Part shown: in pieces, positions 1,854 to 53,504 of the stretch | How positions within the stretch are numbered: the stretch's first letter is position 1 | How the letters are laid out: each line of letters starts with the position of its first letter | Assembly (NCBI GenBank): GCA_009693115.1 | Contig: SHXW01000018.1 | Location: forward strand, 1 to 53,504 | Length of the DNA stretch: 53,504 bases | Source of the DNA: Dehalococcoidia bacterium | Lineage (GTDB): Bacteria; Chloroflexota; Dehalococcoidia; Lucifugimonadales; Lucifugimonadaceae | Direction: 5' to 3' | Translations under genes and position numbers: made by a program | The notes under the pieces: model-generated | What the model was told of the DNA's origin: nothing | The model's database searches: none | What the model saw: the letters and a program-made list of their open reading frames with translations, nothing else

Positions 1854-1973
1854 GTGTAGGGACTGCTCCAGATTGGGATGCGACTTGGCGATACCTTGAC
1901 CAGCCAGCCGCTGGCGGGCGAAGTCTACTCCACCCTTTGGTCAACTCTCTTATTGGTAGGGAAGACTCGCGGC

Positions 1974-3191: not shown

Positions 3192-3213
3192 TGCGTTTGT
3201 CCTGTCTTTTGAT

Positions 3214-3252
3214 CCCTTCTCCACTTGAGGGAGAGGGCCGGGGTGAGGGGTG
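3214..3252. repeat. Dispersed palindromic repeat, copy 1
   Basis: Between two enolase-family genes the sequence CCCTTCTCC-ACTTGA-GGGAGAGGG is followed by CCGGGGTGAGGGG. It is one of about a dozen related short palindromes in the gaps of this window, and this copy has the long GGTGAGGGG tail. Confidence 0.6.
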
Positions 3253-3266
3253 AAGTGTTTTTGTTG

Positions 3267-20933: not shown

Positions 20934-21445
20934 CCCGGCCGTGGAGCGGTGAGGAGTTGGCGGTTGCCATACGTGCATTCGCGCCGGGGGCAGTCGCCAG
21001 CCACTATCGGGACTCGGTCTGGGTAGAGCCGACTGAGTGGCTCGCTCTCGCAACTGCTCTGCGCGACCGGCGGGAGTTCACTTTCGACCTTCTGAACTCG
21101 ATTTCAGCAGTGGATTACATCGGATACTTCGAGGTTGTGTACCACCTGACGTCACTGCGACAGAACCGCAGCGCTGTGGTCAAAGTGAAATGCGGAGAAG
21201 GCCGTAAGGATCCCATCGTGCCGAGCGTGGTGTCGGTATGGCGGACGGCTGACTTGCAAGAGCGGGAGGCCTATGACCTCATGGGCATCCGCTTCGAGGG
21301 CCACCCGAATTTGAAGCGGATCATGCTCTGGGAAGGGTTCCCGGGGCATCCACTGCGGAAGGACTTTGTGACTTACGACCAGTCCGTCGTGCCGCTTGAG
21401 GCGCAGCAAGCAGTGGCCGAGCGTAAGGCGCAGGACGGCGCGTGA
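20930..21445 (+). CDS. nuoC: NADH-quinone oxidoreductase subunit C
   Basis: This 171-residue 30-kDa-type subunit starts at GTG 20930, overlapping the nuoB stop by four bases. Signatures are [38 protein letters not shown] and PGHPLRKDF, read here in pieces. It belongs to the peripheral arm and binds NuoB and NuoD without cofactors. NuoC and NuoD are separate genes here, not fused. A gap of about 150 bases follows before nuoD, unusual in an otherwise tight operon; I see no gene in it. Confidence 0.94.
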
Positions 21446-21595
21446 TTACCCTGGGCAAACCCCTCTCCGAACCGGGTGCGCTTTAGCCGGGGGGCGAGCG
21501 TCAGTCCGGTGGACCAGAACGTTATCGTGTGATCTGGGCACTGATCTTGACATGAAGACTCCTGCCTTCACAGGAATGGCAAAGAAACAATCTAA

Positions 21596-22702: not shown

Positions 22703-22760
22703 TTAGGGTTCCTCCCTCCCAATGGCAGTAGAGATGCGTGGGGGTAGAGGTGTCCATCTG

Positions 22761-22801
22761 CTCACCCCTCTCCATCACCCTCTCCCTTGATCGTGGAGGG
22801 G
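22761..22801. repeat. Dispersed palindromic repeat, inverted copy
   Basis: CTCACCCCTCTCC followed by CACCCTCTCCCTTGATCGTGGAGGGG is the repeat of copy 1 read in the opposite orientation. It lies between nuoD and nuoH within the operon, so it would be transcribed and form a stem in the polycistronic mRNA. Confidence 0.5.
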
Positions 22802-22830
22802 ATGAACGAAACCGATAGATAGAAAGAAAC

Positions 22831-24120
22831 GTGCCAACTTTTCTCGACAACTCATGGTTCCGCAACATCTACTGCAACCTCGTAGAGAACGATAGCGCGC
22901 GCTGCGCGTCCGGCGGCTGGTTCGGCGATGGGATACTCCCGAACAACCTGGCCTGGCTCGCATACACAGTCGCCGCGTTTGTCATCTGCTTCGCCATCCT
23001 CAATGCGTTGCTCGGCTCGGTCATCGTCTACATCTGGGCGTGGCGTCGGGTCTTCGCCCGGTTCCAAAGGCGCTCTGGTCCCAACAGGTGGGGCCCGTTC
23101 GGGATGCTCACCACTGTGGCAGACGCCATAAAGACGATGTTCAAGGAAGATGTGGTACCCGCCGAGGCCGACCGCCTCATCTTCAACATCGCTCCGGTGC
23201 TCATGGTGGTGCCGGTGTTCATGGTCTTCGCCGTAATTCCGTTCGGGGCGGGCACATTTTTTGTTGACCTGAACGTGGGCATCCTCTTCATAATCGCCGT
23301 CACTTCCGGAAGCGTGCTGGCGGTCGTGATGGCTGCTTACGGTTCTGCGAACCGGGTGGCGATCTTCTCCGGCATGCGTTCGGTGGCTCTGTTGATGAGC
23401 TACGAGATCCCAATGGCGATCTCAGTGATAGGCGCCGTCATGGTCGCCGGGTCGCTTTCGCTTGGCAGGATCGTGGAAGCGCAGGACGTGCCATTCATCA
23501 TCGTCATGCCGCTCGGCTTCCTAGTCTTTGCGATTTGCGCGCTGGCGGAATCCAACCAGACGCCGTTCGACATTGCAGAAGCTGAGTCCGAGCTTGGGTC
23601 GGGATACCTGAACGACTATTCCAGCATGAAGTTCGGAATGTTCTATCTGGCGGAATTCGCAGCCGGAATAGCCGCTGCGGCGATTATCACGACCGTGTTC
23701 CTCTCGGGCTGGCGCGGTTGGTGGCCGATACCTTCGCAGTTCTGGTTCTTCGGGAAGATGGGAGCGGTTCTCTTCGGAATGATGTGGATACGCTTCACGT
23801 GGCCGCGGTTGCGCCCAGACCAGGTCATGGGCCTCGCGTGGAAAGGCCTGTTCGAACTCACACTCATCAACCTTCTTTCGACCGGCATCATGGTCGCAGT
23901 GTTCGCAGACGAGGAGGCGCCTGGTGACCTCTTCTCCGCAAACGAGCTATGGATCATGGCTGCGGTGAACTGGGTTGTCTTTGTCGTCTCCATCTGGGCC
24001 ATCGGCAAGGTGCTGGCGCCGAAACCGTACCGGGCGGCGATGCTTGAGGCGCCCGTGCAGTTGTACCCTGTCGGCGTTGACGAGATGCCTGCTGTGAAAG
24101 CAGCGGGGGCAGCGGATTAG
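22831..24120 (+). CDS. nuoH: NADH-quinone oxidoreductase subunit H
   Basis: This 429-residue membrane subunit (eight or nine helices) connects the quinone cavity to the proton-pumping arm. The start is GTG 22831. Signatures are RSGPNRWGPFGMLTTVADAI, the acidic loop AESNQTPFDIAEAESELGSG, and ALLMSYEIPM. The first 25 residues (DNSWFRNIYCNLVENDSARC) are a hydrophilic extension before the first helix. The C-terminal tail of about 30 residues is soluble. Several conserved charged residues of the E-channel are visible in the loop. It is followed by 109 bases without a gene and then nuoI. Confidence 0.94.
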   Translation: MPTFLDNSWFRNIYCNLVENDSARCASGGWFGDGILPNNLAWLAYTVAAFVICFAILNALLGSVIVYIWAWRRVFARFQRRSGPNRWGPFGMLTTVADAIKTMFKEDVVPAEADRLIFNIAPVLMVVPVFMVFAVIPFGAGTFFVDLNVGILFIIAVTSGSVLAVVMAAYGSANRVAIFSGMRSVALLMSYEIPMAISVIGAVMVAGSLSLGRIVEAQDVPFIIVMPLGFLVFAICALAESNQTPFDIAEAESELGSGYLNDYSSMKFGMFYLAEFAAGIAAAAIITTVFLSGWRGWWPIPSQFWFFGKMGAVLFGMMWIRFTWPRLRPDQVMGLAWKGLFELTLINLLSTGIMVAVFADEEAPGDLFSANELWIMAAVNWVVFVVSIWAIGKVLAPKPYRAAMLEAPVQLYPVGVDEMPAVKAAGAAD

Positions 24121-24229
24121 AAGTGCTTCCCCTCAATGGAAGATGGCTTTGGCTGAAGGTTGAAGCCACAGAAAGTGTCCTTTCGCTCTGCTTGGGATTA
24201 CCTGTTCTGTACGAACCACTGGAAGGCAA

Positions 24230-24898
24230 ATGATCGGATTCGGTCTCATAAAAGGCATGCGCGTAACGATGAGGAACTTCCTCCGTTCGCCTGTGACTGA
24301 GCAGTACCCGGATCGCCGCGTCTCGCCAATCGAGGCTGCAAAGATGGCCGGGTTGAATCCGGTCGCGTTCGCCATCAGGAAACCGGCCGAGGCGTTCAAG
24401 GCCGCCACGGGCATGACTTCCGTGCCGGTCAAGGTGAAACAGACGCCCCGCTTCCGCGGCAATGAATTTGCCTGGTACGAGGAGCGTTGCACCGGATGCG
24501 CCAGCTGCGCCAAATACTGCCCGCTTGGCATTATCAAGATCGTCACCCACCCCGGCGGCATAGACGTCCAGGAGGGTGAGAGCTACGCCATTGACGTCTT
24601 TGACATAGACATTGGGCGCTGCATGTTCTGCGGCCTGTGCGTCGAAGCTTGTCCTTATGATGCCTTGCACATGGGGTCCCAATTCGAGCGCAGCAGCTAT
24701 GTACGCGCAGATCTCGTCATCACCGTTGACCAACTCAAGGCCAACATGAAGCGGCCAAGTTCTTGGTTCCGCCCGCAGTTCGAAGGAATGAAGTACAGCC
24801 CGTTCGAGGACAAGGCCATGCCAGAGCACAAGGATGCGGGTCGTCACGAAAAGCCGCTTCCCGGCCAACTCACCGAAAAGTGGGTGAAGGAACGGTGA
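24230..24898 (+). CDS. nuoI: NADH-quinone oxidoreductase subunit I
   Basis: This 222-residue ferredoxin-like subunit has two [4Fe-4S] motifs: C87-x2-C90-x2-C93-x3-C97-P (CTGCASCAKYCP) and C131-x2-C134-x2-C137-x3-C141-P (CMFCGLCVEACP). They hold clusters N6a and N6b, which carry electrons toward N2. GGAAGG precedes ATG 24230. The protein is longer than the common form of about 160-180 residues, with an extra N-terminal stretch (about 28-70) and a hydrophilic C-terminal tail. Its stop overlaps the nuoJ start (GTGA). Confidence 0.95.
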   Translation: MIGFGLIKGMRVTMRNFLRSPVTEQYPDRRVSPIEAAKMAGLNPVAFAIRKPAEAFKAATGMTSVPVKVKQTPRFRGNEFAWYEERCTGCASCAKYCPLGIIKIVTHPGGIDVQEGESYAIDVFDIDIGRCMFCGLCVEACPYDALHMGSQFERSSYVRADLVITVDQLKANMKRPSSWFRPQFEGMKYSPFEDKAMPEHKDAGRHEKPLPGQLTEKWVKER

Positions 24899-25530
24899 AC
24901 CTGTTTGAAGTGTCAGGCTCAACGACGGCCGCCTTCTGGGCCGCGTCTGCATTGGCCATAGGCGCTGCGGTGATGGTCGTAACCGTGAAAAACGTATTCC
25001 GTGCCTCGATTTTCCTGGCGTTTTCGTTCATCGGAGTCGCTGGGCTGTATTTCGTGTTGAGCGCCGAGTTCATCGGCATCGTCCAGATACTTGTCTACGT
25101 GGGCGCTGTGTCGGTTCTCGTGGCTTTCGCTGTCATGCTTGTGCGGGATGTGAGCGGTGGCAACAGGAGCATTGGGAAGCCTGTTGTAGCGCTGGTTATC
25201 GCGGCGCTGGTTGGTGCATCCCTCATATTCGTCGCGTACGAAACCAGTTGGCAACGCATCGATGACATCGCGAATGCGGATGCTGTTGCCGGCCTGGCAG
25301 GGACATATGTCGGGTCTGATGCTCCAGGACTGCCCTCGGGTGAGAGCATCGTGTCTGCGGCGGGCGCGGACGCTCTGGGGGCGCAGAGGGGCGTGTTCGC
25401 AGACACGACAGGAGTGATTGGCACGCTGCTCATCAAGGACTTCCTGCTAGCGTTCGAGATCATAGGCATGGTCCTGACTGCCGCACTCATCGGCGCGCTC
25501 GCGATCATGAGAGAAAGGAGGACAACGTGA
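24895..25530 (+). CDS. nuoJ: NADH-quinone oxidoreductase subunit J
   Basis: This 211-residue membrane subunit starts at GTG 24895, overlapping the nuoI stop by four bases. Five hydrophobic helices are predicted, with the family core FLAFSFIGVAGLYFVLSAEF and IVQILVYVGAVSVLVAFAVM. A non-conserved loop of about 70 residues (DDIANADAVAGL through TTGVIG) separates helices 4 and 5. It is part of the membrane arm near the quinone site. The stop overlaps nuoK (GTGA). Confidence 0.93.
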   Translation: MNLFEVSGSTTAAFWAASALAIGAAVMVVTVKNVFRASIFLAFSFIGVAGLYFVLSAEFIGIVQILVYVGAVSVLVAFAVMLVRDVSGGNRSIGKPVVALVIAALVGASLIFVAYETSWQRIDDIANADAVAGLAGTYVGSDAPGLPSGESIVSAAGADALGAQRGVFADTTGVIGTLLIKDFLLAFEIIGMVLTAALIGALAIMRERRTT

Positions 25531-25880
25531 CCCTTGAAAATGTCCTCCTGGTGTCTGCAGTCCTCTTCGCCATAGGGTTATATGGGGTGCTATCACGGCG
25601 CAACGCGGTTACCGTGCTCATGTCGCTCGAGCTTATGTTCAACGGTGTAGTGGTCGCGGCGGTGGCGTTTTCAAGGTTTACGCCCGTTGCGGGGCTTGTG
25701 GACGGCGCAGGGCCAGTGACCACCCAGGGCCTGCGGCTTGCGCTGACCGGGCAGGTGTTCGCGGTGTTCATAATCGCTGTCGCAGCCGCAGAGGTGGCCC
25801 TTGGCCTGGCTCTTGTGCTGGCGTTGTTCAGGCACAGGCAGAGCGTGGAGGTCACGGAAGCAGCAACCATGAGGAACTAG
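25527..25880 (+). CDS. nuoK: NADH-quinone oxidoreductase subunit K
   Basis: This 117-residue, three-helix membrane subunit starts at GTG 25527 after a strong AGGAGG. Conserved features are YGVLSRRNAVTVLMSLELMF with the membrane glutamate of LELMFN, and FIIAVAAAEVALGLALVLAL with the second glutamate; both lie on the proton path. The loop between helices 2 and 3 is longer than in the 100-residue standard form. It is the last gene of the tightly overlapping I-J-K block; a repeat and a small gene come next. Confidence 0.94.
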   Translation: MTLENVLLVSAVLFAIGLYGVLSRRNAVTVLMSLELMFNGVVVAAVAFSRFTPVAGLVDGAGPVTTQGLRLALTGQVFAVFIIAVAAAEVALGLALVLALFRHRQSVEVTEAATMRN

Positions 25881-25894
25881 ACGTGTTTTCGGAA

Positions 25895-25913
25895 TCTCCC
25901 TCCCAACGGGAGA
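25895..25913. repeat. Dispersed palindromic repeat, short form
   Basis: TCTCCC-TCCCAAC-GGGAGA forms a 6-bp stem right after the nuoK stop. It belongs to the same CTCCC/GGGAG family as the other intergenic copies. Confidence 0.45.
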
Positions 25914-26027
25914 CCGGTGCAAACGGGAGGTAGTGCGGGTGTGGAGACTGACATGGATCTGTGACGCGTGACGGTGACGCAAGAGTGCTGGATCAATTTC
26001 AACTGGAACGTTTCTGGAAGACGCCAT

Positions 26028-26222
26028 ATGTGGACTGACTATCGCAATGCCCCCAACCTGATGATCGCCGAGATGTGGAAGAACCTCCTTGAAGGCGAAG
26101 GGCTTCCCGCGAAGATCGTCCCGGAGGGCGACATCCTTGACTGGGGCGAGCGAGTGCCGTTCCGCGTGCTTGTACCAAAGGGCCGAGAGCATGTGGCAGA
26201 CGAGATTTTGAGGAAGCTGTGA
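26028..26222 (+). CDS. Small DUF2007-like protein inside the complex I operon
   Basis: This 64-residue soluble protein reads from ATG 26028, which has GGAAG about eight bases upstream; an in-frame GTG at 25968 would add 20 unlikely residues. It begins with the pattern W-x-D-Y-R-NAPN-L-MIAEMWKNLLE, then GLPAKIVPEG and FRVLVPKGREHVADEIL. This is the pattern of DUF2007-type domains: a beta-alpha-beta-beta-alpha unit with a V.v...A..iL end. Such domains are small putative signal-transducing or regulatory modules of unknown role. Its location between nuoK and nuoL in the same orientation suggests cotranscription. Whether it works with complex I is inference only. Confidence 0.6.
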   Translation: MWTDYRNAPNLMIAEMWKNLLEGEGLPAKIVPEGDILDWGERVPFRVLVPKGREHVADEILRKL

Positions 26223-26253
26223 GGTGCTGTTTGAGCGAAAAATGCCGGAATAT

Positions 26254-26327
26254 GCCCTCACCGTGCGCCTGCGGCGGACACCTTCTCGCCGAGCAGGGTG
26301 CCTACTGGGCACGTGCCTTGGTGAGGG
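26254..26327. repeat. Long imperfect hairpin before nuoL
   Basis: CCCTCACC (26254-26261) and GGTGAGGG (26320-26327) pair over 8 bp. Inside them GTGC and GCAC can extend the stem, and the middle holds TTCTCGCCGAGCAGGGTG. It is a larger member of the dispersed repeat family, placed between the small gene and nuoL. Confidence 0.5.
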
Positions 26328-26395
26328 AGAAGTCTCAATTCAACAATTAGGCTTTGTTACTTCTGTGCTCTTGTTTTAGGACAGTTATTTAGGCC

Positions 26396-28510
26396 GTGTT
26401 CAACGAAACTCTAGCCTGGCTCATACTTGCGCTCCCTGTCGGCAGCTTTCTGCTGAACGGGATGGTCGTGCGTCCCCTTTTCGGGAGGCGGGCGAAGATA
26501 GCCGGATATTTGACCGTGGCTGCGATAGCCGGGTCCTTTGTCCTGTCCCTGTGGGCGCTCGGCGCCGTCATTAATCACAATGTAGATGACATGCCCGCGC
26601 ACAACTGGATCACGGCAGGCAGCGTGGTAATCGGTTTCGGAATTCTCATTGACCCGCTCACTGCGGTCATGCTTGTCGTGATCACGGGCGTCAGCCTCCT
26701 CGTCCAATTCTATTCACAGGCCTATATGAAGACCCACGCGCCCTCCAGCGCTGGCCACGGTAGTCACGCTGGCGACTCCGGTCATGGAGCGGCTACAGGG
26801 CACGGCCATGCAGCAGGGCAGGGCGCATCTCAAGGTGGGTCCCGCCTTGACCCCGGCTACACTCGCTACTACTCCTACATGTCCCTTTTCACGGCGAGCA
26901 TGATCGGCCTCGTCATGTCACGAGGCATCGTTCAGTTATTCGTCTTCTGGGAGTTGGTGGGCGTCTCCTCCTACCTGCTCATCGGTTTTTGGATGGAGAG
27001 GCCATCGGCGGCTGCGGCGGCGAAGAAGGCCTTCGTAATGACCCGCTTCGCTGATTTCGGCTTCCTCCTCGCCATCATTTACATCTCGTTCAATAACCCG
27101 CAATGGCTGGACATCCCCACCCTCTATGCGGCGATAGAAAGCGGCCTCGTGGCGGCTACGGTGGCTACGTGGGTCGGGCTCGGCCTGTTCATGGGAGCGG
27201 CTGGCAAGTCGGCGCAGTTCCCGTTCCACTCATGGCTCCCTGACGCAATGGAGGGCCCGACTCCCGTATCAGCCCTCATCCATTCCGCCACGATGGTCAC
27301 CGCGGGCGTGTTCCTCGTCGCCCGGTTCTTCCCGCTCTATGAGCACGCCGCAGGCGCGCAGAACACTGTGGCCCTTGTAGGCGGGTTCACAGCGGTGTTC
27401 GCCGCGAGCATGGGACTGGTCGCGAACGACATCAAACGCGTGCTGGCGTACTCAACGGTGTCTCAGCTTGGCTACATGATGTTCGCCCTGGGCGTGGGCG
27501 CATATGTGCCCGCCATCTTCCACCTGTTCACGCACGCCTGGTTCAAGGCCATGCTGTTCCTCGGTTCAGGCTCCGTTCACCACGGCGGCGGAACATTCAA
27601 TATGCGTTACCTTGGGGGGCTGCGGAAGCAGATGCCGTGGACCTACTGGAGCATGGTGATAGGCAGTCTGAGCCTGGCCGGACTATTCCCGCTTTCGGGC
27701 TTTTGGAGCAAGGACGAAATTCTTTCCCATGCTGCGGGTGCCGGAACGGGCGTCGGCACGATAGTTCTGATTTTGGGCTTCACTGCGGCGATCATGACCG
27801 CCTTCTATATGTTCCGGGCCATATTCATGACCTTCCATGGCGAGTTCAGGGGTGGAGGGGCGAAGGAGCGCGAGGACCTCGAGCGAGCGCACCAACCCGT
27901 TCCGGCCGGTCTTGAGACCGCGCACCCGGCGGAGTCACCCTGGGTCATGGTCGCTCCCATCGTTGTACTGGCGGTCGCTGCGATAGTCATAGGATTTGTC
28001 GCCAACCCGTTCGTGGACACGGGCATCGTGCCGAAGCACGGCCTGGCCGAATTCCTAACGAATAACCACGCGGTGTTCCCAAGCCACAAGGCCGCAGTCG
28101 AGGCGGGAGCGGAGCCGGTGTTCAACTTCCCGGTCGCCATCATTTCATCTGCTCTGGCGGTGGGGGGCATAGTCCTGGCCTACGCGATGTACGCAAGCAA
28201 GGCGTTGTCACCGGAGAAGATCGGGACGCGCCTGAAACCGGTCTATAGCCTGCTCGTTCGCAAGTACTTTGTAGATGACCTGTATGAAGGTATAGTCGTG
28301 AACCGGCTGTTCTACCGCAGGCTCGCGTTTGACTTGGACCGCTTCGACAAGTCGTGGCTGGACAATGCCAACGTGCAGATCTCAGGCTTTACGGCGCGGC
28401 TGGGTCGGAGCCTGTCCCTGGGCCAGAACGGCCAGATGCAGACTTATGCCGCGGTCATGACCATTGGCATAGTCATAGCCCTTGCGGCTTTCGTGATCTG
28501 GGGAGGCTGA
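26396..28510 (+). CDS. nuoL: NADH-quinone oxidoreductase subunit L with His-rich insertion
   Basis: This 704-residue antiporter-like proton-pumping subunit starts at GTG 26396. Core signatures are FVFWELVGVSSYLLIGFW, GKSAQFPFHSWLPDAMEGPT, ALIHSATMVTAGVFLVARF, KRVLAYSTVSQLGYM and HAWFKAMLFLGSGSVHH. The C-terminal part carries the lateral helix region and a last helix. Unusually, residues about 112-152 form a loop rich in His, Gly, Ser and Ala, with histidines at 114, 121, 124, 130, 136 and 138, just before DPGYTRYYSYMSLF. Standard NuoL has only a few residues there. A soluble loop (about 480-515, with EREDLERAHQP) is also long. It lies distal in the operon, before nuoM. Confidence 0.95.
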   Translation: MFNETLAWLILALPVGSFLLNGMVVRPLFGRRAKIAGYLTVAAIAGSFVLSLWALGAVINHNVDDMPAHNWITAGSVVIGFGILIDPLTAVMLVVITGVSLLVQFYSQAYMKTHAPSSAGHGSHAGDSGHGAATGHGHAAGQGASQGGSRLDPGYTRYYSYMSLFTASMIGLVMSRGIVQLFVFWELVGVSSYLLIGFWMERPSAAAAAKKAFVMTRFADFGFLLAIIYISFNNPQWLDIPTLYAAIESGLVAATVATWVGLGLFMGAAGKSAQFPFHSWLPDAMEGPTPVSALIHSATMVTAGVFLVARFFPLYEHAAGAQNTVALVGGFTAVFAASMGLVANDIKRVLAYSTVSQLGYMMFALGVGAYVPAIFHLFTHAWFKAMLFLGSGSVHHGGGTFNMRYLGGLRKQMPWTYWSMVIGSLSLAGLFPLSGFWSKDEILSHAAGAGTGVGTIVLILGFTAAIMTAFYMFRAIFMTFHGEFRGGGAKEREDLERAHQPVPAGLETAHPAESPWVMVAPIVVLAVAAIVIGFVANPFVDTGIVPKHGLAEFLTNNHAVFPSHKAAVEAGAEPVFNFPVAIISSALAVGGIVLAYAMYASKALSPEKIGTRLKPVYSLLVRKYFVDDLYEGIVVNRLFYRRLAFDLDRFDKSWLDNANVQISGFTARLGRSLSLGQNGQMQTYAAVMTIGIVIALAAFVIWGG

Positions 28511-28513
28511 GAG

Positions 28514-28591
28514 ATGTTGGATCGCCTCCTGAACACATCGAATCCCCCTGCCGGAGACGGACAGGCTGAAGGCACGGGGCACCCCGTCTGA
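28514..28591 (+). CDS. Possible 25-codon micro-ORF coupled to nuoM
   Basis: ATG 28514 follows GGGAGG (28501-28506) at ideal spacing. The frame ends at TGA 28589-28591, whose A is the first base of the nuoM ATG (TGATG). The peptide would be MLDRLLNTSNPPAGDGQAEG plus five residues, hydrophilic after a short amphipathic start. nuoM itself has no strong ribosome-binding site, so ribosomes ending here could restart on nuoM. No homology is recognised and the frame could be chance, since it is short. It is best read as a leader that delivers ribosomes. Confidence 0.3.
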   Translation: MLDRLLNTSNPPAGDGQAEGTGHPV

Positions 28592-30135
28592 TGTTCAACG
28601 GACTCCTCACTTTTACCGTCTTCCTTCCCGCGGCGGGTGCCATCGCAGCCCTACTGCTGCTGAGGCGCGACCGGGATATCAGGTGGTTCGCCATTGGGGT
28701 CACGGTCGCGACGTTCGTCCTATCTGTGGGCGTCTTTGCCAACTACGACCGCGTAACGGGCGGCGTGCAGATGGTGGATCAGTTCAGGCGGTGGATCCCG
28801 GTGCCGGGGCTGGAGTCCCAGTACTTGCTCGGCGTGGATGGCCTCAGCGCTCCCCTCGTCATGCTTACGGGCCTCCTTGGAATGGCTGCCGCGCTAGGGT
28901 CATGGCGTGTCGGGAAGCGCGTGCGGGAGTATTTCTTCTGGCTCCTACTGCTAGAGACGGCTGTGCTGGGAGTGTTCACCTCACTCGACATGCTCCTGTT
29001 TTTCGTCTTCTTCGAATTTGAAGTCATCCCGATGTACTTCCTCATCGCTGTCTGGGGCTCGGGCCGGCCCCGGTACTCTGCGATGAAGTTCGTTCTGTTT
29101 ACTCTCACAGGCGGGGCGTTCCTCCTTGCCGGCATATTGATGGTGTATCTATCGCAGGGCGTCGGCACTCTGGCCATGGTGACAATCCCGGATGCAGGCG
29201 TCATAGGCATCCCTGACGTCATCGGCAACGCAGACCTGATCGCTCCGGCGGCAATGATCTTCGCCTTCTTCTTGGTGGCATTCGCGGTCAAGCTGCCCCT
29301 CTGGCCCCTCCACAACTGGTTGCCTGACGCGCACACCGACGCGCCGACGGCGGTGAGCGTGATGCTCGCTGGCGTGCTCTTGAAAATGGGCGGGTACGGA
29401 CTATTCCGGATATGTCTGGGGATGTTCCAGGAGACGCCCGGGTTTCAGGTGCAGGACGCCGCCGGGGTGCTGGCCGTCATCGCCGCTATCAGCGTCATAT
29501 ACGGCGCGATAGTCACCGTGCGACAAACGGACATGAAACGGCTCGTCGCCTTCTCCTCTGTGAGCCACATGGGCTTCGTGATGCTGGGTGTGTGCGCCAT
29601 TGCCGCCAGCGGGGAGGACGGCAAGGCAGGCGGACTGAACGGCGCCGCTTTGCAGATGTTCAGCCATGGCACGATCACGGGCCTCGCCTTCTTGATGGTG
29701 GGCCTGACATATGACCGCGCCCACACGCGCCACATCCCGCACCTGGGCGGCCTGTGGCGGAAAATGCCCCTGATCGCCATCTTCTTTCTGATCGCCGGGT
29801 TCGGTTCGCTCGGCCTGCCGGGTCTCTCCGGCTTTGCGTCGGAGATACTTGTCTTTCTGGGCACCTTCCCCGTGTGGCCATGGGCGACGGCTGTCGCGGC
29901 GTTTGGGGTAGTGCTGGCCGCGGGCTATACGCTGTGGATGGTGCAGCGCGCCTTCTTTGGCCCAAAACCTGCCGTGGGTGGCCTGCCGGACGACCAGTAC
30001 GAGCACCTCTCGGACGCCAACTGGCTGGACATGATCCCAGCGGTCGCGCTGACGGCCGCGATCGTGGTTGTGGGTATCTGGCCGAAGGTGCTGACCGATG
30101 TCTTTGACACCGGCATCAGAGAGCTCATCAGGTGA
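28591..30135 (+). CDS. nuoM: NADH-quinone oxidoreductase subunit M
   Basis: This 514-residue antiporter-like proton-pumping subunit (about 14 helices) begins at ATG 28591. Signatures are LLFFVFFEFEVIPMYFLIAVWG with the conserved membrane Glu (read across the helix), FAVKLPLWPLHNWLPDAHTD with the key Lys, and KRLVAFSSVSHMGFVMLG. A loop near 336-350 (ASGEDGKAGGLNGAALQMFS) holds a Gly-rich insertion. The start overlaps the stop of a possible micro-ORF. A 54-base gap with GGGGGAGG precedes nuoN. Confidence 0.95.
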   Translation: MFNGLLTFTVFLPAAGAIAALLLLRRDRDIRWFAIGVTVATFVLSVGVFANYDRVTGGVQMVDQFRRWIPVPGLESQYLLGVDGLSAPLVMLTGLLGMAAALGSWRVGKRVREYFFWLLLLETAVLGVFTSLDMLLFFVFFEFEVIPMYFLIAVWGSGRPRYSAMKFVLFTLTGGAFLLAGILMVYLSQGVGTLAMVTIPDAGVIGIPDVIGNADLIAPAAMIFAFFLVAFAVKLPLWPLHNWLPDAHTDAPTAVSVMLAGVLLKMGGYGLFRICLGMFQETPGFQVQDAAGVLAVIAAISVIYGAIVTVRQTDMKRLVAFSSVSHMGFVMLGVCAIAASGEDGKAGGLNGAALQMFSHGTITGLAFLMVGLTYDRAHTRHIPHLGGLWRKMPLIAIFFLIAGFGSLGLPGLSGFASEILVFLGTFPVWPWATAVAAFGVVLAAGYTLWMVQRAFFGPKPAVGGLPDDQYEHLSDANWLDMIPAVALTAAIVVVGIWPKVLTDVFDTGIRELIR

Positions 30136-30172
30136 TTTCAACCATTCCTGTCCGCGCCCAGATGACATCCGA

Positions 30173-30192
30173 GGGGGAGGGATAGCGCTCTG
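30173..30192 (+). promoter_or_regulatory. Ribosome-binding site and CTG start of nuoN
   Basis: GGGGGAGG (30173-30180) lies nine bases upstream of CTG 30190. The frame from this CTG reads LTVHDFWLISPALAMAGLAI, the normal NuoN beginning with a complete first helix. The only ATG, at 30232, has no comparable site and would cut that helix. No ATG, GTG or TTG occurs between the upstream stop (30163) and 30232 in this frame. Confidence 0.5.
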
Positions 30193-31716
30193 ACTGTTCA
30201 CGATTTCTGGCTGATCTCACCAGCGCTCGCGATGGCCGGACTGGCCATCGTGGTGGTGCTGGCTGACCTTGCCATGCCGCGCGATGGCGAGGTCAGGGCG
30301 GTCAGGGCAGGGAGTGGAGCGCAGCTTTCGCTGTTGGCCCTCGCCGGCCTGTCTGCACCAGCGCTGCTATCGCTGAACCTATGGTTCGGCTGGTTTGGAG
30401 ACGCTGGCGCAGGTCCGGGTTTCAGTGGGGCGATAGTGGCCGACCGGTTCGCTCTTTTCTTCCAGTTCATCCTGACCGGCGTGACTGCGGGAGTCATCAT
30501 GGCCTCGATGGGCTACGCTCGTCGCCTGCCGGGCCTGCGCGGTGAGTTCATCGCGCTCATGCTCTTCTCCGTGACAGGGATGCTGTTGCTGGTGTCGGCG
30601 CGAGAACTAATTTCGATCTATGTCGCGTTGGAACTTACAGCGTTGCCTGTCGCGGCGCTGGCCGCTTTCGGCAGGGACGGGCGGTCGTCCGAGTCCGGTC
30701 TGAAGTTCCTTATCTTGAGCGGCGTTTCATCCGCCGTGCTGCTTTACGGCATGGTGTATCTATACGGCTATACAGGCAGCACGGACATCGCCGTCATAGC
30801 TGAACGTATAGGCGACCTGTCCCAAGATGCGGGCAAGCCGTTCGGCAGCTACGCCGTCTTGCTAGCAGTAGTCATGATCGTCGCCGGATTCGGTTTCAAG
30901 ATGGCGGTCGCGCCATGGCAGATGTGGGTCCCGGACGTTTACGAAGGCTCACCCACACCTGTTGCCGCTTTCCTGTCTGTGGCATCCAAGGCGTCCGCCT
31001 TCGCAGTCGTTCTTCGCGTGCTCTACACGAGTTTCGGCGCGCCTGAAATGGCGAGGGACTGGTCGGCGTTGTTCGCGATACTCGCCGCCGGTACGATGAC
31101 CTTTGGCAACCTGCTCGCCCTATCTCAAAAGAACGTCAAACGCCTCCTCGGGTATTCGACGATCGCGCAGGCTGGCTACATGCTCGCGGGCGTGGCGGCT
31201 GTGGCGGCGAACACGAGAGACGGCGGGGGCATCGCCGGGCCGCAAGGTGTCCTCTTCTATCTGGCCGGGTACGCCTTCACCAACCTGGCGGTCTTCATCG
31301 CAGTCATAGCCATCACCAACCGCACGGGGAGCGACATCATCAGCGGCCTGAATGGGTTGGGCAGGCGCTCGCCTCTGATGGCCGGACTGCTCGCGGTGGG
31401 CCTGCTGTCGCTGCTGGGTATCCCTCCGACCGTAGGTTTCATGTCGAAGGTATTTGTCTTCAGCTCGGCGGTGAACTCGGGGTTGGTGTGGCTGGCGGTC
31501 GTTGGTGTGCTGAACACGGTAATTTCCGCTTTCTACTATCTGGGAATACTGCGGGCCATGTACTTTGAAGAGCCCGCGGACGGCGCTCCGATCCCGGCTG
31601 ACCGACCCGCGGTCCTGGCGGCGATAGTGGCGACGCTAGGCGTAGGCGTATTCGGGTTCGCTCCGTGGCTGCTGCTTAACCTGGCCGAAAAAGCTCTCAC
31701 TATCCTGCGTGTTTAG
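30190..31716 (+). CDS. nuoN: NADH-quinone oxidoreductase subunit N
   Basis: This 508-residue antiporter-like subunit is the last gene of the complex I operon. Signatures are LISIYVALELTALPVAALAA with the conserved Glu, FKMAVAPWQMWVPDVYEGSP with the key Lys, and KRLLGYSTIAQAGYMLAG. The start is inferred to be CTG 30190 because it restores the first transmembrane helix and has a strong ribosome-binding site; the ATG at 30232 is the conservative alternative. With NuoA-D and H-N but no NuoE, F or G, the complex lacks its usual NADH-oxidising module in this cluster. The electron donor may be ferredoxin or another protein, or the genes may lie elsewhere. Confidence 0.93.
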   Translation: MTVHDFWLISPALAMAGLAIVVVLADLAMPRDGEVRAVRAGSGAQLSLLALAGLSAPALLSLNLWFGWFGDAGAGPGFSGAIVADRFALFFQFILTGVTAGVIMASMGYARRLPGLRGEFIALMLFSVTGMLLLVSARELISIYVALELTALPVAALAAFGRDGRSSESGLKFLILSGVSSAVLLYGMVYLYGYTGSTDIAVIAERIGDLSQDAGKPFGSYAVLLAVVMIVAGFGFKMAVAPWQMWVPDVYEGSPTPVAAFLSVASKASAFAVVLRVLYTSFGAPEMARDWSALFAILAAGTMTFGNLLALSQKNVKRLLGYSTIAQAGYMLAGVAAVAANTRDGGGIAGPQGVLFYLAGYAFTNLAVFIAVIAITNRTGSDIISGLNGLGRRSPLMAGLLAVGLLSLLGIPPTVGFMSKVFVFSSAVNSGLVWLAVVGVLNTVISAFYYLGILRAMYFEEPADGAPIPADRPAVLAAIVATLGVGVFGFAPWLLLNLAEKALTILRV

Positions 31717-48608: not shown

Positions 48609-49028
48609 TCAGGTCTTCTCATGTCCGATTCTCTCGGCCACCGCTTTGAGTACTTCGCGAGCTATTGCCATGGCGCGCGTGGAATCGGTCTCGTCATGGG
48701 CCTCGGCCGGTACGCCGCCTGGCAGGGCCGACGGGTAACGGGTCCCGAGGAAGTGCTTGTCCAGCAGCATGGCGACAGACTTGATGAGATCGAACGATGG
48801 GTCGAAGGCCAGGGCATCCTCGCATAGGTCTGCAAGGGCATGGCCCCAGACCTGCTCGCATCCACTGGCGTACAGGAAGCCCGTGACTGCCTTCTCCGCC
48901 GCCTGATGGCTCAGGAAACATGCGAGGGCATGGCGTCCCTGAAGCGCATTTGCCTCTGCGGCGTCCATGTCATAACGCGCCTGCGCCATCCACGCTTTGT
49001 ACCGTGTGTCAGGCCGGCCCTCAGCCAT
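48609..49028 (-). CDS. HEPN-domain protein of an MNT/HEPN pair
   Basis: This 139-residue helical protein shows a HEPN-family pattern: WMAQARYDMDAAEANALQGR, then CFLSHQAAEKAVTGFLYASG, GHALADLCEDA and the terminal TRYPSALPGG. The R-x4-6-H motif of ribonuclease-type HEPN toxins is not visible; the nearest pairs are R32/H41 and H63 in GHALADL. ATG 49028 overlaps the end of the nucleotidyltransferase gene by eight bases (ATGGCTGA), so the two are translationally coupled. HEPN/MNT pairs are known as toxin-antitoxin modules in which MNT modifies HEPN. The missing motif makes a non-toxic or accessory role possible. Confidence 0.75.
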   Translation of the reverse strand: MAEGRPDTRYKAWMAQARYDMDAAEANALQGRHALACFLSHQAAEKAVTGFLYASGCEQVWGHALADLCEDALAFDPSFDLIKSVAMLLDKHFLGTRYPSALPGGVPAEAHDETDSTRAMAIAREVLKAVAERIGHEKT

Positions 49029-49350
49029 AAACAAGTTCCCCGCTGCCTTGCGCAGACCGTAGGACCGGGTCGACCGCTGCCAACTCTTCGAGTTCATCCG
49101 GGGTGAATACGTGAAACGTGACGCCAACTCGAGGCCGGAGATGGCTTTGCCAGAAGTCTGCCCGCCGGCGCCATGGTTCATCTGTCTGTTGGACAACCAC
49201 CAGATCAAGGTCGGAGGCGGGCGACACGGTTCCCATTGTCAGATCTCCCACGACCCACATCCGCAACATTCCGAGGGTCGGCATCTCCTGGATGAAGCGC
49301 TCAAGTTCAACCTCAAGCAACTTGCGACGCTGCCGGGCGAAACCAAACAT
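49021..49350 (-). CDS. Minimal nucleotidyltransferase (MNT) of an MNT/HEPN pair
   Basis: This 109-residue protein reads from ATG 49350. It has the minimal nucleotidyltransferase signature G35-x11-D47-L-D49 (VVGDLTMGTVSPASDLDLVV), where the usual Gly-Ser is Gly-Asp. The third acidic residue may lie in the strand VGVTFHVFTPDE. It likely transfers a nucleotide, perhaps AMP, to its HEPN partner encoded immediately downstream with overlap. An ATG at 49383 is an alternative start that adds 11 residues. The pair sits behind a minus-strand NHL-DUF1501-DUF1800 block and could be read through from it. Confidence 0.75.
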   Translation of the reverse strand: MFGFARQRRKLLEVELERFIQEMPTLGMLRMWVVGDLTMGTVSPASDLDLVVVQQTDEPWRRRADFWQSHLRPRVGVTFHVFTPDELEELAAVDPVLRSAQGSGELVYG

Positions 49351-49410
49351 GATTGGCACGGATTCACTCCACAGGCGCATCATTCCTGCACTCGTCTGCT
49401 GAGACCGGTT

Positions 49411-50409
49411 TCAAACCGTATAGAGGAACGGAGCGCCGGGCACCGCCCAGACTTCCTGGTCAGTCAGGGCATATGCCTCTTTCCGATAGACCTGAATGCG
49501 GTGCGAACCGAAGTCGCAGATGTACAGGAAACCTTTGTCGTCAACCCTGACCGAGGCTGGCCCGCGCAGGCGCCTTGACTCTTCAAGAGTCGTCATCTCG
49601 CGTGCCCGCAAGACTTTCGGGTTTGCCATGATGTAAATCCGACCGCTTTTTGAGAGGGTGGCGTCTCCGATGAAGCGGTCAACGTACCGGCCCGTCCTAT
49701 CGAACTGCGCGACGCGGTGATTGCCGCGGTCGGCGACATACACATCCCCATCTGCATCGAGCGTCAAACCCGCGGGCCTGTTCAGCCCGCCTTCTCCTGA
49801 CCCGGAGTGGCCGAACTGCATGACGAACGAACCGTCCGGACCAAACTTCTGTACACGGTCGTTCCGCCAGTCAGACACGAACACGAAACCTTCGTCGTCG
49901 AGGGCCACGCCCCATGGCATGTCGAACTGGCCCTCAGCGGCGCCGTGAGAGCCGAACCCGCCCATGTGGCGTCCGTCATTGGAGAATTTCTGGAGGCGGT
50001 GGTTCAGCGTATCGGCCACCCAGAGATTTTCATCTGCGTCGAATGCGATGCCTGAGGGACGGTTAAGTTGGCCCGCTGTTGGCCCATGTGTGCCCCATGA
50101 ACCGTGGCTCTTGCCCTCCCTGTCCCAGACCGTGACCTTGTGGCTGCCTTCATCCGACACGTATAGGAGTCCCTGTCTGTCCCGGATGATCTGGACTGGC
50201 CAAAGGAACCCTGAGCCGATGGTGCCGAGGTCCTCATCGGCCCAGTTTGTGCGCCGGATTTCTCCGCCCGCACCATCCGACCGGTTGAGGACGAACAGCG
50301 TGCCGTCATTTCCAATCGCCATGTCCATCGGATAGGTCGTCACCCGCCTCATCCCTATGGTGGTATGGAATGGGAACCCGGCTCTTAGTAATGCGTATGG
50401 TTTGGCCAT
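49411..50409 (-). CDS. NHL-repeat beta-propeller protein
   Basis: This 332-residue protein is built of about six NHL repeats, each with the pattern L-N-RPSGIAFDAD-x-LWVADTLNHRLQKF. Clear copies are at about 115-145, 160-190 and 207-237. Such propellers bind proteins or act in signalling. There is no signal peptide or transmembrane helix, although some NHL proteins are exported. It follows DUF1501 (76-base gap) and DUF1800, all on the minus strand. The region around 240-280 has a lower-scoring blade (KSGRIYIMANPKVLRAREM). No enzymatic residues are visible. Confidence 0.85.
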   Translation of the reverse strand: MAKPYALLRAGFPFHTTIGMRRVTTYPMDMAIGNDGTLFVLNRSDGAGGEIRRTNWADEDLGTIGSGFLWPVQIIRDRQGLLYVSDEGSHKVTVWDREGKSHGSWGTHGPTAGQLNRPSGIAFDADENLWVADTLNHRLQKFSNDGRHMGGFGSHGAAEGQFDMPWGVALDDEGFVFVSDWRNDRVQKFGPDGSFVMQFGHSGSGEGGLNRPAGLTLDADGDVYVADRGNHRVAQFDRTGRYVDRFIGDATLSKSGRIYIMANPKVLRAREMTTLEESRRLRGPASVRVDDKGFLYICDFGSHRIQVYRKEAYALTDQEVWAVPGAPFLYTV

Positions 50410-50485
50410 GTCTCCCTCAGTCCCGGACAGGCGGCCGTGTCGCGGTCATGACATGCGGCGCCGGGGTAGTCCCTGTCGCATTGAC

Positions 50486-51655
50486 TCAGGCGGCAGGGGT
50501 CTTGATGAAAGGCCTGATCTGCTCGAACCTTCCGCCAACTATCTCTGTGGACGGCATTCCCATCCACTGTTCGAGGAGGGTGCTGTAAATGCCGCGGAAG
50601 TCAATGGTGTGGCGCATGTCCTCGCCATAGAGCCAGTCCCGCGGCGCCAGCGAAGGGTACTCTGAGTAGAGGCCTCCCTTGACGTTCTCTCCTAGGATGA
50701 AGGCGCCGCCACCTGAACCGTGGTCGGTTCCGGACCCATTGTCCTTGATGCGGCGCCCGAACTCCGTGAACACGAGTACCGCCACCTCTTCGGCTGCGTT
50801 GTGTTCGCGCAGATCGGCCATGAAGTCTGAGAGCGCCTGTGACAGTTCGGACAGAAGGCGTGCGTGTGTAGGCACTTCCTGGGCGTGGTGGTCGTACCCG
50901 CCGTGATTGGTGTAGAAAATCCGGGCGCCAAGCCCTGATGTGTGGACCCTGGCGACATCTCGCAGCGCCTTTGCTATGGGGTTGCTGGCGTATTCGACGC
51001 TCGATTTGTACCTTCCTGGCGCGACGGCCAGGATGTCCGCACCTTTGATGACGCCCTGTCCGGTTTGGGCCAGATAGTCCATCACCATGCCAGTCCCTAT
51101 GGCGGGCGTGTACATACGTTTGAAATAGTCGAGGTCCTGGGATCGCTCCTCTTTTTTCTCGATGGGAGACATAAGCCCGTAATTGTCCAGGTCGCCGACA
51201 GAGGTCGCCGTTACGCCCGGCGCTGCCAGCGCCCGCGGCAACCCGCGCCCGAAACTCACCGCGGTCAGTGGGTTCAAACCTTGCGGGTCAAGCTGTCGGA
51301 CCACCTTCGCAAGCCAGCCCTCCGTGGCGATCCTGTCCGGCTCGCATGTGTGCCATATGTCCATGGCACGGAAGTGCGATCGGCTCGAATTTTCATAACC
51401 GATGCCCTGGACGATCGCCATCTTCCCGCCATCAAAAAGCCCGCGGAACGGCGCCGCAGAGGGGTGGAATGCGAGCTTGTCCGAGATGGGCAGCACCCTG
51501 TTCTCTGGTATGGCCACAAGTGGCCGGGAGTCGTAGTAGATCCCCTCAGTGAACGGGATGACAGTGTTCATGAAGTCGTTGCCGCCGGAGAGCTGCACGA
51601 TCACAAGCACGGGTTCTTTCTTCCGGGCGTTGGCGTTGACTTTCTGCGATGCCAT
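50486..51655 (-). CDS. DUF1501 protein
   Basis: This 389-residue member of the DUF1501 family (related in fold to the alkaline-phosphatase/sulfatase group) has VLVIVQLSGGNDFMNTVIPF at the start, YENSSRSHFRAMDIWHT in the middle, and FTEFGRRIKDNGSGTDHGSG near the end. Many family members begin with a twin-arginine signal; this one begins MASQKVNANARKKEPVLVIV with no hydrophobic leader. It is probably functionally linked to the DUF1800 gene 51 bases upstream, the usual pairing. The biochemical function of the family is not established. Confidence 0.87.
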   Translation of the reverse strand: MASQKVNANARKKEPVLVIVQLSGGNDFMNTVIPFTEGIYYDSRPLVAIPENRVLPISDKLAFHPSAAPFRGLFDGGKMAIVQGIGYENSSRSHFRAMDIWHTCEPDRIATEGWLAKVVRQLDPQGLNPLTAVSFGRGLPRALAAPGVTATSVGDLDNYGLMSPIEKKEERSQDLDYFKRMYTPAIGTGMVMDYLAQTGQGVIKGADILAVAPGRYKSSVEYASNPIAKALRDVARVHTSGLGARIFYTNHGGYDHHAQEVPTHARLLSELSQALSDFMADLREHNAAEEVAVLVFTEFGRRIKDNGSGTDHGSGGGAFILGENVKGGLYSEYPSLAPRDWLYGEDMRHTIDFRGIYSTLLEQWMGMPSTEIVGGRFEQIRPFIKTPAA

Positions 51656-51706
51656 CTGGGCGGCTCCTTGCGTTGGGCGGCGTGGGAAGGGCTCTCTGCG
51701 CCGTCC

Positions 51707-53122
51707 CTACATGAACTGATATTCCCTGCTGGCGACGATCAATTGAAGCAGCCGGACAATCCGTCGCTCAGACTTTGCTGCTTCCTCGGGAGAGCCGAAG
51801 GTCAGGTCACCCTCTGTTTGTGCGAAGTCCAAAAGGGACTGGTGTGTCACGTCGCTCACTGTCAACTGGCCCGCCAGTTCCAACGCCTTCCTTACACAAT
51901 CTGCGGGAGGAAGGGGAGAACCATCGCCCCTGATCTGGTTGGCTATCAACCTGACGCCCGGCCTGGCCATGTTCCCGACCTCGCCGACGGCGAAGTTGAC
52001 CCGTTCGGTCAAAGTGCCGCCATCGATCCACTCTTTCCCGGTATGCCAGCCCTCCACCGATGGAGGATCCATCAGCTTCTGGCCCATGGCCACGCTCGCC
52101 GGTTCCAACGCGGTTAATCCGGGTTCCACCTGGCGGAATGCTCCGGCGAGTTTCAAGGTCCCGGCAATAAAGTCGGCTGGCGATTTCACTTTTCTGAAGC
52201 GGGCCTGCTTGAAGAAGTCGGAATTGAACAGGTCCTGAATCACGACGCGCATGTCGCCGTTTGAGTCCAGGAATGACTTCGCCAGGGCTTCCACCGCTGC
52301 GGGGTCCTGCGGAGGCGTGACGCTCCATGAGGGCACCTGCGGCTCGTCCGCCACGAAGAAGTTGTAGAGGTGGCGGCTCACAAAACGGGCTGTCGCTTCC
52401 TGCCTGACGATGATCTTGATGATGTCCTCACCGTTGAACCTGCCGGTTTGCCCGAGGAACGTCTTCACGCCATCATCGTGGTCTCGGGGGTGATATTCGA
52501 ACCTGGAGTCGTAGTGGCCGAACGGGTAAAGGGGCATGGGCTGCTTGAAGGTCCAGCCTGTGAACGCCCTCGCCGCGGCCTTGATGTCATGTTCGGTGTA
52601 ATTGCCGATGCCCATCGAAAAGAGTTCGAGTAACTCCCTGCCGTAATTTTCGTTGATGGCTCCCCCGTGGTTCTCACAGTTATCCAGCCAGTAAATCATC
52701 GCCGGGTCCATGGACAGTCCTACAAGGAGCGATGAGAAATCGGTGAGGCAATTAGCCCGCAGCATCTGGATGTGGTCAACCATCGTCGGCGTGTGTTCAC
52801 TCTTGGTCCAGCCTGTGGCGAATACGTGGTGCCAGAAGAGCGTCATTTTCTCTTCCAGCGGCCGCTTCGTATTGATCATCCGGAAGAACCACCGGCCGTT
52901 CCAGACGTCCGGGTTATCCTTATTTGCCCAAAGCTGCGGGTAGAAACGGGAAAGCACGTCCTCTTCAAGCTCTGGGGACCGCTCGAAATGTACGAGGCCC
53001 TCCACGAGGTCCCTGTACGAGCGGGATGACATCTCCTCTAATTCATCGCCGGTCGCGCCGAAGCCCGCCCGCCTCATCAGGTGGGAAATCAGAGAAACAT
53101 CGGTCTTGGTCCGGGTAGCCAA
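51707..53122 (-). CDS. DUF1800 protein
   Basis: This 471-residue protein of the DUF1800 family, usually encoded next to DUF1501, has no known function. Characteristic stretches are HLMRRAGFGATGDELEEM, MTLFWHHVFATGWTKSEH, NENYGRELLELFSMGIGNYT and ARAFTGWTFKQPMPLYPFG, followed by PPSVEGWHTGKEWIDGGTLT near the end. It lacks an export signal. It heads the minus-strand cluster DUF1800-DUF1501-NHL. The 214 bases before its start also precede a divergent plus-strand gene at 53337. Confidence 0.87.
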   Translation of the reverse strand: MATRTKTDVSLISHLMRRAGFGATGDELEEMSSRSYRDLVEGLVHFERSPELEEDVLSRFYPQLWANKDNPDVWNGRWFFRMINTKRPLEEKMTLFWHHVFATGWTKSEHTPTMVDHIQMLRANCLTDFSSLLVGLSMDPAMIYWLDNCENHGGAINENYGRELLELFSMGIGNYTEHDIKAAARAFTGWTFKQPMPLYPFGHYDSRFEYHPRDHDDGVKTFLGQTGRFNGEDIIKIIVRQEATARFVSRHLYNFFVADEPQVPSWSVTPPQDPAAVEALAKSFLDSNGDMRVVIQDLFNSDFFKQARFRKVKSPADFIAGTLKLAGAFRQVEPGLTALEPASVAMGQKLMDPPSVEGWHTGKEWIDGGTLTERVNFAVGEVGNMARPGVRLIANQIRGDGSPLPPADCVRKALELAGQLTVSDVTHQSLLDFAQTEGDLTFGSPEEAAKSERRIVRLLQLIVASREYQFM

Positions 53123-53336
53123 GGGGTCCTCCGCGTCGGGGGTGTGAGCGGATGCATCTGGGGCAGCGTTATAACCGGATAACCGGGCGAGGCAGGGGCC
53201 TGTGTATTCAGGTCTGCGGGCATCCGCGGCGAGTCCAAGCCGGACGAGCCCGGCTGGGCGACGTAATTACTACACCGCTGGTAGCCTCCATGCAACTATT
53301 GTCAACGGCTAGGCCAGATGTGGGAGGCGCAAAACC

Positions 53337-53504
53337 GTGGGCGAGGCATCAAGCGATGCGAGGACGATGGCCCGTGGTATGGCGGCAATTTACGGCCACA
53401 GGCTTGAACGGCCGATCACGTACACCCATGGCGTAGCGCTGAGGGAACGGCTGCGACTGTTCGAAACCGGCGGCCTTTCTAGTGATCCTGCGCCTGAGAT
53501 TGCC
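53337..53504 (+). CDS. Start of an unidentified protein, cut by the window end
   Basis: The frame opens at GTG 53337 with GGGAGG (53327-53332) about four bases upstream and stays open to the last base, giving 56 residues without a stop. It reads ARGMAAIYGHRLERPITYTH and then GVALRERLRLFETGGLSSD, which looks like real protein. An ATG at 53367 or 53379 could be the true start. It is divergent from DUF1800. I do not recognise the family. Confidence 0.45.
   Translation, partial: MGEASSDARTMARGMAAIYGHRLERPITYTHGVALRERLRLFETGGLSSDPAPEIA

Follow-up and report, generated by a model that had tools for sequence, protein, structure and literature searches.

The DUF1501 and DUF1800 protein families are widespread, and a twin-arginine translocation (Tat) leader is usual on ordinary DUF1501 proteins. 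In a stretch of 53,504 nucleotides from a Dehalococcoidia bacterium (GenBank assembly GCA_009693115.1, contig SHXW01000018.1; the whole stretch, called the window below, is one entire contig of a 2.0 Mb genome), an initial annotation noticed a DUF1800-DUF1501 pair in which both proteins begin directly with the domain and which is followed by a gene for an NHL propeller. It suggested that a cytoplasmic three-protein system would be a distinct variant of the pair. This locus raises the question of whether the missing leaders are real, whether they mark a lineage, and what such a lineage might do. We found that the pair in the window is indeed a distinct variant, belonging to a branch of its own that is leaderless and linked to the NHL gene. 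We give a probability of about 0.55 to the reading in which this branch is a cytosolic form of the pair, with DUF1501 acting as a metallohydrolase, together with DUF1800 and the propeller, on imported organic matter. The three genes and the stretch that precedes them are the following.

51,707 to 53,122, minus strand: DUF1800 protein, 471 amino acids, TTG start, without export leader (PF08811)
50,486 to 51,655, minus strand: DUF1501 protein, 389 amino acids, without export leader, predicted alkaline-phosphatase-superfamily fold (PF07394 and structure model)
49,411 to 50,409, minus strand: NHL beta-propeller protein, 332 amino acids, without export leader (PF01436, PF08450)
53,123 to 53,504, minus strand: upstream stretch up to the contig end, including the GGAGG ribosome site before 53,122

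Missing leaders in the window and its relatives

The positions given for these genes in the initial annotation are exact, and the families are well matched in Pfam: PF08811 scores 332.7 bits on the DUF1800 protein (cut-off 26.1) and covers profile positions 1-418 of 419, PF07394 scores 79 bits on DUF1501 (cut-off 27), with its best stretch at residues 242-365 (profile 242-377 of 390), and PF01436 reaches 142.6 bits in four stretches of the NHL protein (cut-off 20), which also matches PF08450 SGL above its cut-off with 55.9 bits. NCBIfam offered no name for the DUF1800 or DUF1501 protein. The triple itself is real, although its first description was incomplete, as it did not mention the MNT-like and HEPN genes downstream (49,383 to 48,609) nor the further copies in the genome.

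The predicted starts in the window are sound. A GGAGG lies 5 nt before the TTG at 53,122, and the 61 in-frame residues preceding the DUF1800 domain motif offer no other start codon. AAGGAG precedes the ATG of DUF1501 at 51,655 by 8 nt, and no start codon comes earlier in that frame; the NHL ATG at 50,409, preceded by GAGGGAG, opens a protein whose N-terminus is MAKPYALLRAGFPFHTTIG. We searched upstream of the DUF1800 and DUF1501 domains of the window and found no Tat-like leader. The gaps between the genes are 51 nt (DUF1800/DUF1501) and 76 nt (DUF1501/NHL), where relatives have medians of 63 nt over 104 loci and 56 nt over 89.

We then asked the same of relatives. The named loci are those 80, out of 580 candidates, that are most similar to our DUF1501 profile (A1), and 40 further loci, mostly on longer contigs, were picked by hand from the listing of relatives. 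A leader was called Tat-like when twin arginines were followed by a hydrophobic stretch, scanning from the earliest start codon up to 90 residues from the domain. By this rule no Tat-like leader was found among 116 DUF1501 and 119 DUF1800 N-termini, and none of the 112 loci with both N-termini read carried a Tat-like leader on either protein, or an upstream in-frame start that would provide one; as some genomes occur in both collections, these 112 loci are not all independent. Among 121 NHL frames a single one was flagged (L092), where the match lies in a stretch that extends the frame upstream of the conserved start, and one DUF1800 frame (L130) had a hydrophobic upstream stretch with no twin arginines. 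The best starts in relatives lie about 9-25 residues ahead of the domain, mostly with a Shine-Dalgarno-like match. Start codons, ribosome sites and the leader scan across relatives led us to reject a wrongly chosen start as the explanation for the missing leaders.

Ordinary Chloroflexota pairs behaved differently, mostly carrying leaders as the initial annotation had assumed. For controls we searched 201 genomes, of which 93 gave Pfam matches, and took the 30 best; 20 of these were refetched with wider flanks (about 3 kb where the contig permits; in L233 the DNA beyond DUF1501 extends for only about 0.6 kb downstream). The rule called 16/20 DUF1501 and 12/17 DUF1800 proteins Tat-like, and where both N-termini could be read, in 17 control loci, at least one leader was always present. 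The remaining three of the 20 were not counted as pairs: L239, with no DUF1800 in the DNA examined, and L248 and L252, which failed the N-terminus filter (in both, DUF1800 is Tat-like by eye and DUF1501 has no leader by rule). In L234 and L244 additional Tat leaders were seen by eye that the rule had overlooked. No NHL gene stood beside any of the 20 in the refetched flanks. An earlier, simpler leader test had given Tat leaders in 0/80 named DUF1501 proteins (one truncated) and in 23/30 controls.

Could the triple be exported even without leaders, by hitch-hiking on another Tat substrate or by a route that we did not recognise? TatC is encoded in the genome of the window, so an absent Tat pathway does not account for the missing leaders, and the machinery for hitch-hiking would be at hand. 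By rule 7 of the 17 control loci have a leader on one protein only, an apparent hitch-hiking that in L234 and L244 reflects misses of the rule. In the clade, however, neither DUF protein is Tat-like at any locus read, 120 of the 121 NHL frames have no leader, and the commonest neighbours are HEPN and MNT-like genes, the leaders of rarer neighbours lying outside the scan. We therefore consider export of the triple unlikely.

A single leaderless branch linked to an NHL gene

The next question is whether the triple is conserved as such. All three genes occur together in 77/80 named loci, a figure that applies to the leaderless branch and not to DUF1501 at large, since the loci were sampled by similarity; the other 3 are cut off by the end of the contig at the place of the missing gene. 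Among the 40 further loci, 34 carry the triple in order, 4 are DUF1800-NHL, 1 is DUF1800-DUF1501 and 1 holds DUF1800 alone. The NHL gene is thus conserved next to the pair, with few exceptions among these 40. Neither of the two findings that the initial annotation named as refuting it, upstream Tat starts in relatives and an NHL gene that is not conserved, was therefore obtained. The gene order is broken in Entotheonella (L254) and in one Lucifugimonas locus (L262), where NHL sits upstream of DUF1501.

By record title the 80 named loci come from Dehalococcoidia (28), Chloroflexi (24), Poribacteria (16), Caldilineaceae (5), SAR202 (3), Latescibacteria (2), Entotheonella (1) and Lucifugimonas (1), and the nearest DUF1501 proteins among the named relatives are those of Dehalococcoidia and other Chloroflexi of SAR202 type. 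DUF1800 relatives were found in 106/149 related genomes. In the genome of the window itself there are 2 further DUF1800, 2 further DUF1501 and 3 further close NHL relatives, which are grouped together: one complete triple (contig C19), one DUF1800-NHL locus (C2) and one DUF1501-NHL locus at a contig end (C37).

To place the leaderless proteins, we built an unrooted tree of 74 DUF1501 domains, leaders excluded, from 150 rows left after a filter that removed members scoring below 100 bits or whose match begins late in the profile, L253 and L010 among them. For four rows we assigned the leader state by hand: Tat to L259 and L244, unknown to L247 and none to L252. The 51 leaderless, high-scoring DUF1501 proteins form a single branch with support 100/98, present in 100% of 200 bootstrap trees; the label tested was no leader by rule plus more than 500 bits, and the branch is thus partly defined by similarity. 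Outside it are Tat types, save a few proteins in one small group that have the leader on the DUF1800 partner. On this tree the leader state needs 2 changes and the NHL state 3.

Some genomes carry both kinds of protein. One Entotheonella and one Latescibacteria genome have Tat types with no NHL gene in the 1.5 kb flank plus leaderless types, most of them with NHL, and a Poribacteria genome likewise holds Tat and leaderless types. Therefore, the missing leader belongs to the branch of the protein and not to the organism or to its annotation. A single loss of the leader is likely; we go no further than this because the root was not inferred and sampling beyond Chloroflexota is thin.

The three proteins also diverge together. 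In 74 non-redundant triples of the 112, NHL divergence correlates with that of DUF1800 (Pearson r 0.885) and of DUF1501 (r 0.846), and none of 500 permutations reached the co-divergence of the triple (r 0.85-0.89). From this and from the missing leaders we infer what the initial annotation had called a cytoplasmic three-protein system, a reading that goes a step beyond the conserved gene order.

Predicted fold and candidate active site of DUF1501

What might such a system do? The AlphaFold2 (AF2) model of the window DUF1501 has a mean predicted local distance difference test (pLDDT) of 79.8 and a predicted template modelling score (pTM) of 0.84. It resembles a bacterial nucleotide pyrophosphatase/phosphodiesterase (7mw8; Z 17.6, root-mean-square deviation 3.4 Å over 243 aligned residues), 505 of 1000 chains compared reached Z of at least 5, and Foldseek placed LtaS and sulfatases on top. 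These values predict an alkaline-phosphatase-superfamily fold. Sequence profiles add weak matches of PF01663 (type I phosphodiesterase) and PF00884 (sulfatase) in some members: in the window PF01663 touches residues 247-300 (E 0.13) and PF00884 gives no row at E up to 1, and among 19 aligned members 4 match PF00884 weakly (best E 0.0055). A further profile (A4) against solved structures returned chance-level rows only, with a best E of 0.02 across 108 positions.

Candidate catalytic residues of the window DUF1501 are D27, S93, D255, H257, E298, D311 and H312. The tree rows show that D27, S93, H94, D255, H257, D281, E298, R301, N306, D311 and H312, among others, are invariant in 51/51 leaderless and 23/23 other DUF1501 proteins. 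By contrast R92, R96, H102 and R141 are invariant within the leaderless branch and variable outside it, where R92 occurs in 8, R96 in 5 and H102 in 2 of the 23 proteins. R92 and R96 flank the presumed nucleophile S93, which in the model stands immediately ahead of helix 94-103, after strand 79-86; we take this to be the nucleophile site of the alkaline-phosphatase superfamily. E298 may occupy the position of the usual Asp-His pair of the superfamily. The invariant candidate residues and the branch-specific residues together suggest a working metal site with a changed substrate in the leaderless branch, in a putative active-site layout.

In the reading that we prefer, DUF1501 would be the enzyme, a metallohydrolase with S93 as serine nucleophile and a metal site made by D27, D255, H257, E298, D311 and H312, that would cut a phosphate or sulfate ester or transfer that group. 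DUF1800 would be its constant partner, and the propeller, found in the leaderless branch only, would be a third subunit serving as scaffold or in substrate binding, perhaps handling lactones or esters. Such a system would probably process imported organic compounds in SAR202 and in the sponge-associated phyla, where the copies multiplied.

Alternatively, DUF1501 and DUF1800 could be structural, a propeller-and-helix assembly in which the phosphatase fold is a scaffold without catalysis. No activity of DUF1501 is known to set against this, and a 2015 paper describes DUF1501, where it deals with the family, as lacking biochemical or other characterisation (PMC4452313). Nevertheless, both branches keep all candidate metal and nucleophile residues unchanged, in 74/74 rows, and a scaffold would not need them, which makes this reading rather improbable.

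The partners are less easily read. The AF2 model of the window DUF1800 (pLDDT 88.4, pTM 0.90) is mostly helical with numerous invariant polar residues, and the family has the conserved motifs HLxRRAxFG, NENxGRE and VExWHxGxEW. A search with the whole model, its domains not being searched separately, brought up no relative of solved structure (Foldseek best E 0.099, VIA best Z 4.9), and a known fold may still lie within it. The window NHL protein carries the N-terminal motif PYALLRAGFPF..TIGMRR, of which LLRAG..(Y/F)..T(L/I)GMRR is common to the nearer members of our NHL alignment (A3) and altered in the three paralogues of the same genome. The scytonemin protein ScyF (NF035926) was rejected as an identity, with 151.3 bits against an NCBIfam equivalog cut-off of 350. 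Another contig of the same genome (C25, 23,843-28,882) holds four more NHL matches, spread over three or more open frames, within about 5 kb.

Several observations weigh against a cytosolic three-part enzyme. DUF1800-NHL without DUF1501 occurs in 4/40 further loci and in one own locus of this genome; such loci are L009, L078, L081, L086 and L087, where NHL comes after DUF1800 and the DNA examined shows no DUF1501 between the two genes or next to them. A strict three-part complex is therefore not general, and because the two occur without DUF1501 the propeller may contact DUF1800 rather than DUF1501. Co-divergence partly reflects the shared descent of linked genes. The DUF1501 model was built on 25 sequences, its Foldseek E-values are about 1e-5, and blocks 21-30, 91-100, 251-260 and 301-310, with a mean pLDDT of 55-64, contain D27, S93, D255/H257 and the loop following E298. 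A search with the DUF1501 profile found no solved chain matching by sequence, so that residues are not mapped onto a solved enzyme and their assignment depends on topology and conservation. Finally, leaderless proteins can still leave the cell by a route that is not recognised.

Neighbouring genes and known systems

Two more genes follow the triple in the window.

49,021 to 49,383, minus strand: MNT-like (nucleotidyltransferase-type) protein, 120 amino acids, kept neighbour (sub-threshold PF01909)
48,609 to 49,028, minus strand: HEPN protein, 139 amino acids, kept neighbour (PF05168)

The MNT-like gene starts 27 nt past the NHL stop, and its last 8 nt are also the first 8 of the HEPN gene (ATGGCTGA). 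HEPN is a clear match (PF05168, 73.8 bits against a cut-off of 22), and PF01909 matches the MNT-like protein below threshold (E 0.027). In a first clustering of the longer frames these were the commonest neighbours of the 80 named loci, HEPN in 22 and MNT-like in 18; a profile search raised this to at least one of the two beside the triple in 35/80, namely MNT-HEPN directly downstream (28), downstream with a further NHL (1), inverted (3), upstream (1) or in cut loci (2). One or the other is also present in 18/40 further relatives. Seen from the HEPN side, at least 46 of the best 73 HEPN places have a DUF1800 gene no more than 5.5 kb away (5 of these places being on the other strand and 2 upstream), the nine HEPN of genus g7, at 35-42% identity to that of the window, are all linked to DUF1800, and the only HEPN of this family in the window's genome is the one beside the triple. 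An adjacency that survives inversions points to a real link rather than to idle synteny.

HepT-MntA toxin-antitoxin pairs carry R-x4-H in HEPN, and a G-S turn and D-x-D in MNT. RX4H is present in 1/41 distinct HEPN (a looser R-x4-6-H in 13/41), and the G-S turn and D-x-D in one each of the 40 MNT-like proteins read, of 41; the window MNT-like protein has the D-x-D and no G-S turn. As the MNT and RX4H motifs are lost in nearly all 41, an active toxin-antitoxin pair is unlikely in most members and possible in some. A stress or defence island, in which a working HEPN-MNT toxin-antitoxin would carry the triple as cargo or effector, is thus very improbable and was set aside: the frequent adjacency, the D-x-D of the window copy and the loose HEPN motif speak for it, but the catalytic motifs are decayed in most members, PADLOC gave weak matches only (to NHL and MNT-like proteins), and no MNT-HEPN pair was present in the DNA examined of 24/24 Poribacteria, Latescibacteria, Entotheonella and Caldilineaceae loci.

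More speculatively, the cytosolic triple might in SAR202 be extended to a five-part machine, in which a former toxin-antitoxin would have been co-opted as a regulatory or assembly subunit, and the DUF1800-DUF1501 enzyme would have moved a single time from outside to inside the cell, to spread afterwards among marine and sponge bacteria for the breakdown of imported organic esters that are hard to use. We regard this extension as doubtful.

Other genes recur near the triple. A GH88/GH105-like glycoside hydrolase (by eye, one member read; L099, 2,341-3,429, minus strand) occurs in 13/80 loci, mostly upstream and on either strand, and a TonB-receptor-like gene, by eye exported (one Poribacteria member read; L153, 4,147-6,513), lies downstream on the same strand in 10/80. 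Elsewhere in the window, 20,082-31,716 (plus strand) holds a run of genes that by eye resemble those for complex I subunits B, D, H, I, J, L, M and N; NuoE, F and G were not noticed by eye among the open frames of at least 180 amino acids in 1-44,000.

The literature gives context. COG3391, COG4102 and COG5267 are presumably the propeller family, DUF1501 and DUF1800, respectively. In a 2020 study the three are grouped as uncharacterised in the part presenting a correlation analysis of expanded SAR202 families (PMC6946804). Work on cultured SAR202 reports that its paralogous enolases and dehydrogenases act on sugars and sugar acids (PMC10444878), and catabolic paralogue expansions, as treated in parts of both papers, form the background of the group; the main text of the latter did not contain the three COGs. 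Three successive frames of the window (693-4,478, minus strand), by eye of the enolase superfamily (mandelate-racemase type), fit this known expansion. For the ordinary pair, one paper, in the part concerned, places DUF1800-DUF1501 genes next to bacterial chitin synthases, with a twin-arginine motif on DUF1501 (PMC5122149). Both DUFs appear only in a type VI effector table in PMC6653060, and DUF1800 in an enrichment table of an alga in PMC7563939; the main texts of PMC5615132, PMC10444878 and PMC11245477 had no relevant match to the family terms. In the open-access literature, supplements excluded, we recognised no publication of the triple as an operon, and in the same literature found no function in print for DUF1501 or DUF1800. 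What appears to be new is the leaderless, NHL-linked branch of the pair as an operon, and what was already known is that the three COGs are named together in SAR202.

Having kept every candidate catalytic residue, the leaderless branch separates what the putative enzyme of two widespread families needs from what its export needs, and ties it to a third protein. Ocean bacteria credited with the use of resistant dissolved organic matter are among its hosts. One of them, Candidatus Lucifugimonas marina JH1073 (L099), is in culture and has the same five-gene order as the window, which makes direct tests of expression, location and substrate feasible.

How does the triple compare with known systems? 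The SAR202 study named the same COG trio, and the section on them mentions no operon, no missing leaders and no other phyla. With the nucleotide pyrophosphatase/phosphodiesterases and sulfatases, DUF1501 shares the predicted fold, but its identity to them is about 11% and its branch has no leader. HepT-MntA pairs have the same arrangement of an MNT-like gene and an overlapping HEPN gene, whereas the pair described here has decayed motifs in most members and stands beside the triple in many SAR202 relatives. The Tat-exported DUF1800-DUF1501 pair has the same two domains, DUF1800 then DUF1501 in most controls, and the same candidate catalytic residues in DUF1501; the branch of the window differs from it by having no leader on either protein, by its NHL gene and by the fixed residues R92, R96 and H102.

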